DNA of 64,000 nt from Hydrogenophilales bacterium 16-64-46 (GTDB taxonomy: Bacteria; Pseudomonadota; Gammaproteobacteria; Burkholderiales; Thiobacillaceae). Position 1 is the first letter of the stretch. The number at the start of each line of letters is the position of its first letter. The position numbers and the translations under genes were made by a program. The stretch covers positions 186,001-250,000 of the forward strand of contig NCGY01000005.1 in NCBI GenBank assembly GCA_002281775.1, read 5' to 3'. This document shows positions 4,520-24,822 of the stretch, in pieces. The notes below the pieces were generated by a model. The model was not told the DNA's origin. It worked only from the letters and a program-made list of their open reading frames with translations, and did no database searches.

Positions 4520-6600
4520 TGGCTTATGCCCTTGGAATCCGTGGTCGCGTGATCGGCCTCGCCCTGGTGCCGGTGGCCATCATCGGTGTGCTCCTGTTGT
4601 TCCAGCTCATCGCCGGAAAGATTGACGACCTGGATCGCGCCCTGCGGTCGCGGGCAGTGGCGATCGCGCGACAGCTCGCGCCGGCAGCCGAGTACGGTGT
4701 GGCCTCGGGCAATATCGGGGTACTGCAGACCCTGCTGGAGAAAGCTGCGATCGAACCCGACATCCGCGGTGTGGCCGTGTTCGCCGACACGGGCGAGTGG
4801 CTCGCCCAGGTGGGTCTGGGCAGTTGGGCGAATCCCCGTCGCGACGGCTTGCCGGCGGATCATATCCACGAAATCGAATTCGCCGACCGGCTGGTCTACT
4901 ACGCGCCGATCACCCGGACCGAGGTTGCGGTCGATGATTACCAGGCCGAGGCCGGGGCGACGACCGACGCGCGTACCCGCCTGATCGGCTGGGTCGGGCT
5001 CGACGTGTCGCGGGACGCCACGGTCAAGAGCCAGCGCGATGCCATCCTCAAGAGCCTGGCGATCCTCCTGGCCGGCATGATCGCCAGCCTTTACCTGGCC
5101 TGGCGTATCGGTCGCCAGATCACGCGCCCCATCCTCGCACTCACCCACACTGTCAGCCGGATTGGTGAAGGTCATCTCGACGAACGGGTGGCCCAGACCG
5201 GCCAAGCCGAACTCGGCAGGCTGCAACACGGCATCAACCACATGGCGGCGCACCTGCAGGCGGCACAGGACCAGATGCAGGAAAAGATCGACCAGGCCAC
5301 CGCGCGCCTCGTCTACCAGGCCAGCCACGACGCGCTGACTGGCCTCATCAACCGGCGCGAATTCGAGCAGCGTCTGGAGCGCCTGCTCCAGACGGCGGTC
5401 CAGCAGGGGCGCGAACACGCCCTGTGCTACATGGACCTCGACCAATTCAAGGTCATCAACGATTCCTGCGGCCATGCGGCAGGGGACGAGCTGTTGCGCC
5501 AGCTGGCACTGCTGCTGAAAGCCAATCTGCGCGAACGCGATACCCTGGCCCGGCTGGGTGGCGACGAATTTGCCCTGTTACTGGAAAACTGCATCCTCGA
5601 GGATGCGATCCAGGTGGCTGACCTGTTCCGCGCCGAAGTCCAGCGTTTCCGCTTCAAGTGGGGCGACCGGATTTTTGCCGTGGGCATCAGCGTCGGCATG
5701 GTCGCGATCACCCGCGACAGCGGCACCGCCGCCAATCTGCTGTCGGCCGCAGACGCCGCCTGCTACGTGGCTAAGGATCGCGGCCGCAATCAGATCCACA
5801 TCTACGAAAGCCGCGACCTCGACCTGGCGCGCCATCGCGGCGAGATGCAATGGGTCGCGCGTATCCAGCGCGCCATCGAGGAAGACCGCCTGCGCCTCGC
5901 CTGGCAGGAAATCCGCCGCACCGACGGCAATATCGAGCGCCCCCGACACGTCGAACTGCTGTTGCGCATGGTAGGAGAAGACGGCGGGATGGTGCTGCCG
6001 ATGGCCTTCATTCCCGCAGCCGAACGCTACTTCGTGATGCCCTCGCTTGACACCTGGGTGATCGAGGAAACCCTGCGCGTGTGCCGGGGCCATCTCACGG
6101 CGAAATCAGCCTCACCCTGTCTGTTCGGCGTCAATCTCTCGGGGGCCTCGCTCAAGGATCCGGCCTTCCGCGACATGCTGCTGTCGCGCCTCGAGGCGGA
6201 GCCCGAGGTGGGGCCGCATCTCTGTTTCGAGATCACCGAGACGGCCGCCATTGGCAACCTCGCGGTCGTGAACACCTTCATCGAGGCCATGCGCGGCTTT
6301 GGCTGCCGTTTCGCGCTCGACGATTTCGGCAGCGGCCTGTCCTCGTTTAACTACCTCAAGAACCTCAACGTCGACTATCTCAAGATCGACGGCGCGTTCG
6401 TGCGCGACATCGTCATCAATCCGGTCGATCGCGCCATGGTCGAGGCCGTGCATCGCATCGGCCACCTGCTGGGGTTGAAGACCGTGGCGGAGTACGTCGA
6501 ATCGGACGCCACGCTGGCGCTGTTGCGACAGATCGGCGTGGACTATGTCCAGGGCAACGGTGTGCACCACCCTGAATTGATCGATACGCTGTGTGTTTGA
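4519..6600 (+). CDS. Membrane GGDEF/EAL cyclic-di-GMP signalling protein with HAMP domain
   Basis: 693 residues. There is an N-terminal membrane segment (about 10-32), a periplasmic sensor region of about 140 residues, a second membrane segment near 176-196, then HAMP, GGDEF and EAL domains. The cyclase motif LARLGGDEFALLLEN (GGDEF at 347-351) is intact. In the EAL domain the signature reads VELLLRM (ELL for EAL), but NLSG, EITE, DDFGSGLSSF, LKID and VAEYVES are present. The usual QGxxIgrP segment reads QGNGVHHPEL. It probably makes or degrades c-di-GMP in response to the overlapping upstream binding protein; which activity dominates cannot be judged. Confidence 0.92.
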   Translation: MAYALGIRGRVIGLALVPVAIIGVLLLFQLIAGKIDDLDRALRSRAVAIARQLAPAAEYGVASGNIGVLQTLLEKAAIEPDIRGVAVFADTGEWLAQVGLGSWANPRRDGLPADHIHEIEFADRLVYYAPITRTEVAVDDYQAEAGATTDARTRLIGWVGLDVSRDATVKSQRDAILKSLAILLAGMIASLYLAWRIGRQITRPILALTHTVSRIGEGHLDERVAQTGQAELGRLQHGINHMAAHLQAAQDQMQEKIDQATARLVYQASHDALTGLINRREFEQRLERLLQTAVQQGREHALCYMDLDQFKVINDSCGHAAGDELLRQLALLLKANLRERDTLARLGGDEFALLLENCILEDAIQVADLFRAEVQRFRFKWGDRIFAVGISVGMVAITRDSGTAANLLSAADAACYVAKDRGRNQIHIYESRDLDLARHRGEMQWVARIQRAIEEDRLRLAWQEIRRTDGNIERPRHVELLLRMVGEDGGMVLPMAFIPAAERYFVMPSLDTWVIEETLRVCRGHLTAKSASPCLFGVNLSGASLKDPAFRDMLLSRLEAEPEVGPHLCFEITETAAIGNLAVVNTFIEAMRGFGCRFALDDFGSGLSSFNYLKNLNVDYLKIDGAFVRDIVINPVDRAMVEAVHRIGHLLGLKTVAEYVESDATLALLRQIGVDYVQGNGVHHPELIDTLCV

Positions 6601-21960: not shown

Positions 21961-22638
21961 TTATTGATGCGCGGTCGAGAGGCTGTGTTCGACCAGTTCG
22001 ATGCGCCGGGCGAGGCGGGCAGATTCGGCGCTGTCGCCGCGCTGACGGGCCTGTTCGGACTGAAGCTTGAGATAAGTCAGGAGCGGCTGACGCCAGCCTT
22101 GGGCGGAAGCGGCCTCGGCCGCAACAGCCAGCGTGGCCGGGGTGGCTTCCCCGCGCAGGACCAGCAGGCTGGCGTCGAGCAGGCGGGAGAGCGGGTCGGT
22201 GAGCTTGTCCAGTGCGGCCGGACGCGCTTCTGGCGTGGCGCGGACCAAGTCGCGGTGCTGCGCAGGCAGGGACGCGGAATCGAGGTTTGCCCAGTCCAGG
22301 GTGATAAAACGGTGGTAGGCCGCGTCGACCGGATCGGGCTCGGTGCGGGCCAGTTCGGCATATTCCGCGCAGGGGTCGTCGATCAGCATGGCGCGCCGCG
22401 TGGCGCAGCGCACCAGCCAGAGTCGGGCGGTTTCCGCGACCCGTCCCGCGCCACCGGTGGCCGCCACGGCTTGCTGGAAATAGCGTTCCGCCAGAACACT
22501 CTCACCGAGCAGGGCGTGCTTTTTGTAGCGTTCGATCAGATCGGCCGCGTCGGTTTTCCAGTCCGGCGGCGGCGGGCCGCCGCTGCCGCAGGCGGTGAGC
22601 AGGATCAGGGCGGCGGCAAAGGCGAATGCATTCTTCAT
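21961..22638 (-). CDS. Lipoprotein of the MCE operon
   Basis: 225 residues with a lipoprotein signal (ALILLTACGSGG; lipobox LTAC) and then an alpha-helical, Ala-rich mature part with no domain I recognise (ERYKKHALLGESVLAERYFQ, a TPR-like periodicity). It does not show the PqiC-type auxiliary lipoprotein pattern. Its ATG overlaps the stop of the MlaD-like gene by 4 bp. It is the last gene of a four-gene lipid-transport operon and is probably an outer- or inner-membrane-anchored accessory. Confidence 0.75.
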   Translation of the reverse strand: MKNAFAFAAALILLTACGSGGPPPPDWKTDAADLIERYKKHALLGESVLAERYFQQAVAATGGAGRVAETARLWLVRCATRRAMLIDDPCAEYAELARTEPDPVDAAYHRFITLDWANLDSASLPAQHRDLVRATPEARPAALDKLTDPLSRLLDASLLVLRGEATPATLAVAAEAASAQGWRQPLLTYLKLQSEQARQRGDSAESARLARRIELVEHSLSTAHQ

Positions 22639-23597
22639 GGCAGTTTCACCTCGGGGTCACGGGCGAAAGGCCATTTCTTGTTGATCTCGTTGACCAGCGC
22701 GTTGGCACGGCGCACGGCCTCGTCGATTTCGGCGCGGAGGCGCGCGATGTCCTGGGTGCCTTCCTTCACGTCGGACGAGATTTCGACCGCGTTTGCCATC
22801 AGCGCGTCGGCCTTTTTCAGACTGGACTGCGCATCGTCCAGCATGGCGCGCACCTGAATCATCGAGGCTTTGGTCTGTGCGGCCATGCCGTCCTCGGCAA
22901 AGAGCCAGGTGTCGGTCTTGGCGGCCATGCCATCCATTTTCAGCGCCAGGCCGTCGAGTCTGGTGATGAGATCGCGGGTCTTGTCGAGCGAGTCGGTCAA
23001 GGCCTGAGCCTTTTCCGGGCTGCCAAGCACGCCTTCGAGCACGCCGTATTCGCCGGTCATACGGCCGGTGACCGTCTGCACATTGGCCAGGGTAGCGACG
23101 ATCTCGCCGTCCTTGCGGGTCAGATGCTCGACGTTGGCGAGGATGGCCTTGACGCGCTCGACCAGTACCGGGATTTCCTTGCTGATGTCGGAGGTGAGCA
23201 GCAGCATAGTCGAGTTGTCCGGCAGCGGATTGGCCTTGAGGTCGGGCGAATCGACACGAATCTTGGCGCCGCCGACGATGGGCTTGTCGAGCGTGAAGGT
23301 GCTCGATTGCTTGAGCCATTTGGCGTTGCGTTCCAGTAGTTCGATGTTGATGACGATGCCGCCGTTGTCATTGAGTCCGAGCGCGCTGACGCTGCCGATC
23401 TCAATGCCGGAGAACACCAGCGGCACGCCCGGAGCCACGCCGTCTGCGGTGGCGGCGGCGAGCTTGAGGCGATAGGTGTCTTCGAAAAAGCCGCGCGCGT
23501 GCAGGAGGTAAACCAGAAAAGCCCCCAGCAGCAGCAGCGAAAACGCGACGAAAAGGCCGACCTTGAAGTGGAAGGGATTGGATTTGACTGTGTTCAT
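22635..23597 (-). CDS. MlaD/MCE-domain substrate-binding protein
   Basis: 320 residues. An N-terminal membrane anchor (VGLFVAFSLLLLGAFLVYLL) is followed by an MCE domain (YRLKLAAATADGVAPGVPL, FSGIEIGSVSALGL, LLERNAKWLKQSSTF) and a long helical C-terminal part with coiled-coil character. MCE proteins form hexameric rings or tubes that pass lipids across the periplasm. The ATG at 23597 overlaps the stop of the ATPase-like gene by 4 bp. Confidence 0.88.
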   Translation of the reverse strand: MNTVKSNPFHFKVGLFVAFSLLLLGAFLVYLLHARGFFEDTYRLKLAAATADGVAPGVPLVFSGIEIGSVSALGLNDNGGIVINIELLERNAKWLKQSSTFTLDKPIVGGAKIRVDSPDLKANPLPDNSTMLLLTSDISKEIPVLVERVKAILANVEHLTRKDGEIVATLANVQTVTGRMTGEYGVLEGVLGSPEKAQALTDSLDKTRDLITRLDGLALKMDGMAAKTDTWLFAEDGMAAQTKASMIQVRAMLDDAQSSLKKADALMANAVEISSDVKEGTQDIARLRAEIDEAVRRANALVNEINKKWPFARDPEVKLP

Positions 23598-24031
23598 TGC
23601 GGATAAAGCGCCAGGTTCCAGTCGAAGTCGTAGATTTCCCATGTCCCGTCGATTTCAGGCCGGGCAGCGAGCTGCGCGATGAACGCGGGGTAGGGCACAT
23701 CGTAAAGCATGGCACCCGGCCGGTCGATGATCAGGCGCGGACGCTTGAGCATGAGTGCGCGCGCGAGCTGGGTGACGAAGCGTTGCGCGGGGGTCATGTC
23801 CGGATCCCGCAGCGCGGCAATGTCGCCGTAGCCCAGCGCGTCGAGCATGGCGCGGGCCTGGCGGGTGGATTCGGCTGCGTCGAAATGGCGCTGGTAGAGC
23901 GGGATCAGCGCGATGTTGTCGACGGCGGTGAGGTTGGCCCGCAGGGGCAGTTCGAGCGCCACGCGCGCAACACCGTCATCCTGGGCGACCACGGCTGCGA
24001 GCAGCGCGGCACGATCAGCAAAGCGGGTCAG
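23594..24031 (-). CDS. Truncated, degenerate ABC ATPase of the MCE operon (pseudo-ATPase)
   Basis: A frame of at most 146 residues between the MlaE-like and MlaD-like genes, overlapping both. The start is uncertain: a CTG at 24031 overlaps the mlaE stop, and an internal GTG is also possible. It aligns by eye with the middle of MlaF-type ATPases: LPLRANLTAVDNIAL matches the post-Q-loop region, and PAQRFVTQLARALMLKRPRLIIDRPG matches signature plus Walker B. There is no Walker A, no LSGGQ, the Walker B glutamate reads arginine, and no H-loop histidine is visible. The frame upstream is mlaE out of frame, so the lost part is not hidden there. ATP hydrolysis is very unlikely. Confidence 0.68.
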   Translation of the reverse strand: MTRFADRAALLAAVVAQDDGVARVALELPLRANLTAVDNIALIPLYQRHFDAAESTRQARAMLDALGYGDIAALRDPDMTPAQRFVTQLARALMLKRPRLIIDRPGAMLYDVPYPAFIAQLAARPEIDGTWEIYDFDWNLALYPQ

Positions 24032-24822
24032 ATGTATTTGAGCGCCAATGACAGCACCTCGATGGCAACGATGGCAAAAAATACCCGCATCATGCCGCGC
24101 AGCACGGAGACCGGCACCATGAAGAGTTTTTTCGGCGTTTCCAGCCCGCTGACCACGGGGATCAGGGTGACGGCCAGGCCGAACAGAGCGCACTTGATGA
24201 CGAGTCCTGCGACGATGCGGAAATCGAAAATCTTGGCGACCGTCTGCGTGAAGGCATCGAAACCCGCCATCGTCAGTCCGTAAATCGACAGATAGGCGAG
24301 CAGGAGCGCCAGCAGGCCCGCCAGCGCCGCGAGCACGACGACCGATATCACGCCGCCGATCAGGCGTGGCAGGAACTCGAACTGCATCGGCGGAACCTTG
24401 CAGTGCGCCAGCGCATCCAACTCGTTGTTCACGCGCATCAGCGCCACCTCGGTATTGATGGCGCTGCCGGAACGCAACGCGATGAACAGTGCAGTGAGGA
24501 AGGGCAACAGTTCCAGCACCAGCACGCGGATGGTCATCTCGGTGGCGAATTCGGTCAGGCCGAATTCTCGCGCGGTCGAGAGGATGATGGTGATGAGCAA
24601 CCACGAAATGACCAGTGCGTAGCCGAGAAAAACATGAAGAATCTGGACGGCAGTGAAATAGACCTGTTTGATGACCACGTCGTAGGTGGCGCGATTCCAG
24701 GTCGAGCGGTCCAGCAGCAAAAGTGCAGCGCGTCCGGCGAAGGCGAAAAGTCCGTAGCCGACGCCGAACCAGCCGACGAACCGGGCACCGAGCGATTCGA
24801 TGGAAGCCGCGAGGAAATTCAT
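24028..24822 (-). CDS. MlaE-type permease of an MCE lipid transporter
   Basis: 264 residues with five to six membrane segments and the MlaE/DUF140 features (VYFTAVQILHVFLGYALVIS, the ELLPFLTALFIALRSGSAI loop with conserved RSG, FDFRIVAGLVIKCALFGLAV). It is the first gene of a four-gene minus-strand operon with ATPase-like, MCE and lipoprotein genes, all overlapping by 4 bp. It is divergent from the SH3-domain gene. Confidence 0.88.
   Translation of the reverse strand: MNFLAASIESLGARFVGWFGVGYGLFAFAGRAALLLLDRSTWNRATYDVVIKQVYFTAVQILHVFLGYALVISWLLITIILSTAREFGLTEFATEMTIRVLVLELLPFLTALFIALRSGSAINTEVALMRVNNELDALAHCKVPPMQFEFLPRLIGGVISVVVLAALAGLLALLLAYLSIYGLTMAGFDAFTQTVAKIFDFRIVAGLVIKCALFGLAVTLIPVVSGLETPKKLFMVPVSVLRGMMRVFFAIVAIEVLSLALKYI

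Follow-up and report, generated by a model that had tools for sequence, protein, structure and literature searches.

A conserved pseudo-ATPase in place of MlaF in an Mla-derived MCE operon that has probably ceased to use ATP

The Mpc system of Brucella abortus (MpcEFDA) has been described as an Mla-Pqi chimera (PMC12436622). It resembles the operon described here, located in a 64,000-nt stretch of DNA that was analysed as a whole (the window), in comprising a four-part set of an MlaE-like permease, an NBD position, a long MlaD-like MCE protein (331 residues in Mpc and 320 in the window operon) and a lipoprotein. However, MpcF is an ordinary ABC ATPase whereas the F subunit of the window operon is dead, MpcE has a STAS domain, and MpcA is PqiC-like whereas the lipoprotein of the window operon is predicted to be all-helical and matches no known family. 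Homology of MlaE and of the MCE domain relates the operon to Mla of E. coli (MlaFEDB), and the predicted fold of the degenerate protein at the MlaF position, termed pseudo-NBD, superposes on MlaF (Z 13.9). Unlike MlaF, with 263 residues in 6xbd_I, the pseudo-NBD has 151 residues and no ATP site, and the operon has no MlaB or MlaC gene and carries an extra lipoprotein. PqiA and LetA are not known to be MlaE-type permeases. The PqiABC and LetAB systems are similar in that MCE lipid transport proceeds without an ATPase (PMC12436622), and differ in that the window system had an ATPase ancestrally of which a relic persists. The mycobacterial Mce1 and Mce4 operons likewise lack a working ATPase of their own, but there an intact shared ATPase, MceG, serves both and powers transport (PMC9947336), whereas no such ATPase was found for the window operon among the 30 best NBD loci. 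Neither an MlaE system free of an ATPase nor a pseudo-ATPase NBD was found in the literature searched, which mostly did not include subscription papers.

The four genes form a minus-strand operon at 21.9-24.9 kb of the window in the order mlaE, pseudo-NBD, mlaD and lipoprotein gene (Table 1). The short frame that an earlier note on this DNA had placed between mlaE-like and mlaD-like genes was borne out by Pfam matches on both sides, PF02405 and PF02470, which satisfy the MlaE and MCE components of an Mla/MCE ABC transporter operon; a functional MlaF within the operon was lacking on reading of the motifs. The last two junctions (pseudo-NBD/mlaD and mlaD/lipoprotein) are 4-bp ATGA overlaps. The note had given 4-bp overlaps on both sides of the frame, which holds for the mlaD side and fails for the mlaE side, where the overlap is 22 nt with the most probable start, ATT. 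The fourth gene was absent from that note, as were the start codon and the sister lineages without an NBD.

Table 1. Features of the operon. Coordinates are positions within the 64,000-nt window.
Feature	Position	Strand	Basis
mlaE-like permease, 264 aa	24028..24822	-	Pfam PF02405, 137.8 bits, E 4.8e-40; alignable with the solved MlaE structures, chains 7ch8_G and 6xbd_G
Pseudo-NBD at the MlaF position, most probably 151 aa plus stop	23594..24049	-	ABC-ATPase (NBD) relic; motifs, homologues, model, dN/dS
mlaD-like MCE protein, 320 aa, long C-terminal part	22635..23597	-	PF02470, 29.9 bits (cut-off 25.1), E 6.7e-7
Helical lipoprotein (predicted), 225 aa, lipobox LTAC, operon marker	21961..22638	-	Conserved in pseudo-NBD and NBD-less operons; AlphaFold
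MlaE cytoplasmic segment TM2-TM3 including coupling helix, residues 115-151	24370..24480	-	Conserved in MlaE that is canonical or accompanied by the pseudo-NBD; relaxed where no NBD is encoded
MlaE cytoplasmic loop TM4-TM5, residues 223-246	24085..24156	-	Conservation pattern as for the coupling segment
Putative Shine-Dalgarno GAGGTG for the pseudo-NBD, inside mlaE	24055..24060	-	Sequence; most overlapping loci have GAGG in this position
Most probable start codon of the pseudo-NBD, ATT (AUU)	24047..24049	-	Codon conservation; strand at residues 4-10 of the AlphaFold model

Loss of Walker A, of the LSGGQ signature and of the Walker B glutamate, read previously from the window frame, was confirmed: the frame has no Walker A, and reads MTPAQR at the LSGGQ position and IIDRPG at Walker B. 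None of 89 distinct pseudo-NBD members has a Walker A/P-loop (GxxxxGK[ST]) or an SGG signature, and in the 88 members read the position of the Walker B glutamate is occupied by Arg (84), His (3) or Ala (1) and never by Glu, with the acidic Walker B residue (D/E) kept. The H-loop has no conserved His, the alignment columns reading IxDYxWN. The window protein scored 13.8 bits against Pfam ABC_tran (PF00005), below the gathering score of 25 bits, and gave weak NCBIfam matches to LolD, GlnQ and DevA-type ATPases over approximately residues 28-108. The family has invariants of its own (PLRANL, RD, W144 and Y149), and its most conserved stretch, PLRANLxxxxN, lies just after the Q-loop strand, a region that is the usual docking place of coupling helices.

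An AlphaFold model of the pseudo-NBD, built from 46 sequences (pLDDT 93.6, pTM 0.90), matched ABC NBDs throughout when compared with Foldseek and VIA-align. The match to MlaF (chain 6xbd_I) extended over 146 aligned residues with an rmsd of 2.5 and was among the best, tied with those to many other NBDs. Since the aligned stretch corresponds to MlaF residues 34 to 210, the modelled protein lacks both ends of MlaF, its N-terminal part and its C-terminus, as well as about 30 residues from the interior. Profile matches to the PDB reached E 2.4e-8, and the predicted NBD fold is regarded as confident.

Conservation indicates that the pseudo-NBD most probably initiates at AUU, yielding a product of 151 residues rather than the at most 146 that the earlier note allowed from a CTG start. 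The ATT lies 18 nt upstream of that CTG, a short distance behind GAGG in relatives with overlapping genes, and the overlapping Thiobacillus pseudo-NBD genes have no ATG, GTG or TTG upstream of the conserved core. The 68 overlapping loci that were scored all retain the ATT, and the mlaE Leu codon that overlaps it was TTA in 63 of them and TTG in 5, while TTA accounted for 0.6% of the other Leu codons in those same genes. Where the operon is split, most lone pseudo-NBD genes retain ATT or ATC, four of them behind AGGAG (L129, L134, L136 and L141), and three lone mlaE genes (L202, L205 and L208) have CTG or CTC for Leu at the former place of overlap. At one locus (L151) the ATT is gone and ATG stands at the CTG position. 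A CTG start is disfavoured by the retention of ATT, the bias to TTA and the ATT or ATC codons behind AGGAG in split operons; it would also cut the strand at residues 4-10 of the AlphaFold model. Fusion of the pseudo-NBD with MlaE by frameshifting was rejected, since inspection by eye showed no slippery site and the gene is read by itself in split operons. AUU start codons are rare (infC, pcnB).

The AUU start inside mlaE is conserved in nearly all relatives (L072-L151), and gene finders would mis-call the pseudo-NBD gene. Split operons occur in six genomes, with mlaE at one locus (L202, L203, L205-L208) and pseudo-NBD, mlaD and lipoprotein genes at another (L129, L134, L136, L141, L144, L146), both retained in the same genome.

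The lipoprotein matched no Pfam or NCBIfam family and had no significant PDB fold match (best E 0.065, to TPR proteins), and its AlphaFold model is all-helical (pLDDT 94.4); without a Pfam match and with this predicted fold, it is not the PqiC-type lipoprotein expected of an Mpc-like system. It represents an unclassified helical family present in all loci inspected of its operon. The operon is best marked by the lipoprotein, which was detected in 50 of the 300 genomes searched from the order, comprising all 25 with the pseudo-NBD and 25 without it. Nineteen of the latter 25 loci were inspected together with a further locus belonging to a different family of the class. Each of the 20 contained mlaE, mlaD and the lipoprotein gene, and in none was an NBD found between or beside the genes with a profile that also detects ordinary NBDs; at locus L260 one distant NBD lies on the opposite strand. 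A search by way of the lipoprotein for an intact NBD in the same type of operon retrieved none, only NBD-less operons. In trees of MlaE and of MlaD plus lipoprotein, the NBD-less lineage branched from within the pseudo-NBD lineages, with the gene lost once or twice. A single pseudo-NBD clade was not rejected by the MlaE-only tree (AU p 0.39), which leaves separate clades possible, so that loss of the gene from a pseudo-NBD ancestor is favoured by the trees, not forced. An NBD-less operon at the base of its lineage (locus L263 of genome G138, about 4769-5539) keeps part of the coupling motif (SGAAIAAEVALMRQSGELEA), and its NBD loss is perhaps recent.

The part of MlaE that binds MlaF is a coupling helix on the cytoplasmic side, located between TM2 and TM3 (PMC7790496). 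This helix was located in the window MlaE by alignment to 6xbd_G and by hydropathy, and divergence of the TM2-TM3 and TM4-TM5 loops was compared with that of the rest of the protein. The values were 0.41 and 0.48 versus 0.59 in canonical MlaE (11 sequences only), 0.41 and 0.46 versus 0.53 in MlaE encoded with the pseudo-NBD, and 0.70 and 0.76 versus 0.49 in NBD-less MlaE. Both loops are the least conserved part of NBD-less MlaE whereas they are conserved above the rest in the canonical and pseudo-NBD proteins, and a quarter of the NBD-less sequences have gaps in the coupling segment. When MlaE from pseudo-NBD and from NBD-less operons is compared, the difference is greatest over the 25-residue stretch ALRSGSAINTEVALMRVNNELDALA, which is the coupling segment. 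Since the loops are conserved with the pseudo-NBD and decayed without it, the pseudo-NBD is tied to the docking surface, and the pattern argues that nothing would dock there once the gene is gone.

The pseudo-NBD therefore most likely docks on MlaE as a stand-in, because the NBD-docking loops are conserved with the gene and relaxed without it. A structural stand-in for MlaF, raised in the earlier note, is well supported by the confident NBD fold and by a docking surface released only on loss of the gene. The operon is probably an Mla-derived MCE lipid-transport system that no longer uses ATP, with a docked structural pseudo-NBD. Computation shows the degeneration, conservation and purifying selection of the gene, its NBD fold, the operon linkage, the relatives without an NBD and the link between docking surface and gene presence; that the protein physically docks, that ATP is not used, that flow is passive and where the lipoprotein sits are inferences. 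The pseudo-NBD would have the fold of an ABC NBD, with the P-loop excised and the signature, catalytic Glu and H-loop replaced. Like MlaF, it would sit beneath the MlaE dimer, docked on the coupling helix and the TM4-TM5 loop, and would hold the complex together or stabilise it but drive no cycle. Passive movement of lipid, following its gradient, would take place between the inner membrane (MlaE), the MCE ring and C-terminal part of MlaD, and the outer-membrane side (lipoprotein), and in one sister lineage the pseudo-NBD would have been lost entirely to leave MlaE, MlaD and the lipoprotein. ATP-free anterograde transfer by MlaFEDB has been reported (PMC11289387), which makes passive flow through an outward-open MlaE and the MCE ring plausible by analogy, with transport, docking and direction inferred only. 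A dead motor here and a motor discarded in relatives suggest that the transporter is now ATP-free, with the caveat that an unrecognisable NBD could act in trans.

Three MlaE genes are present in the genome. A search with an MlaF profile, in which the best 30 NBD loci of the genome and not all were scored, identified two high-scoring genes (420 and 403 bits), each adjoining its own MlaE in a complete operon. Other single NBDs scored no more than 161 bits; a 274-bit ORF in L045 was rejected as an orphan MlaF since it carries two NBDs. No orphan or unlinked MlaF was present among these 30 loci, so that use of a separate ATPase, the other option put forward previously, is unsupported. The system could still borrow an intact MlaF encoded by a different operon, acting by itself or paired with the pseudo-NBD as a heterodimer, given the two intact genes, the precedent of the ATPase shared by Mce1 and Mce4 (PMC9947336), and the conserved docking surface of MlaE in species with the pseudo-NBD. 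This is unlikely, however, since no unlinked gene of the MlaF class was among the 30 loci and the surface has decayed in the MlaE of precisely those operons that lack the pseudo-NBD gene, which is unexpected with an MlaF partner supplied in trans.

Conservation of the pseudo-NBD extends throughout Thiobacillus to at least six families of the order and, beyond these, to a single genome from a different order, with its place in the operon unchanged. Of 35 genomes of the same genus, the great majority carry the protein at 66-88% identity, and relatives that carry it include Thiobacillus, Hydrogenophilales, Gallionellaceae and other Betaproteobacteria; the genome from another order of the class has a divergent member in the same operon. 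The 25 genomes of the order with the gene (300 searched) gave scores above 117 bits whereas the next-best ABC proteins reached 43, which marks the family as discrete. Median dN/dS was 0.19 for the pseudo-NBD, 0.12 for mlaE, 0.20 for mlaD and 0.22 for the lipoprotein gene. The pseudo-NBD is under purifying selection, which together with conservation across the family supports the view that the gene is kept and not decaying; a full-length homologue at the same locus, named beforehand as a finding that would refute it, was found in no relative. Selection as strong as in mlaD, along with the strong family-specific invariants, would also fit a pseudo-NBD that docks on MlaE and, beyond any structural part, acts mainly as regulator or adaptor for some other cytosolic partner, an improbable role in view of a conserved operon with no linked partner gene and of a gene dispensable in a whole sister lineage. 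Loss of the catalytic motifs and absence from the sister lineage could point to a decaying gene, a local deletion or an assembly error, a reading refuted by an open frame with the same lesions in dozens of independent genomes, the dN/dS and the TTA at the start overlap (63/68).

The evidence leans toward an MlaE/MCE lineage that evolved from an ABC transporter to an ATP-independent lipid conduit, with living intermediates in the intact NBDs of paralogues, the conserved docked pseudo-NBD and full NBD loss accompanied by decay of the coupling surface. It would be an uncommon case in which stepwise loss of the ATPase of an ABC transporter is traceable in sequence, with a matching change of the coupling helix. 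The need of MCE systems for ATP and the direction of lipid movement are disputed, and in a natural series of the same transporter, with its motor dead or missing, the purpose of the motor can be examined directly: whether MlaE and MlaD are enough for passive transfer, and what an NBD contributes besides ATP hydrolysis.
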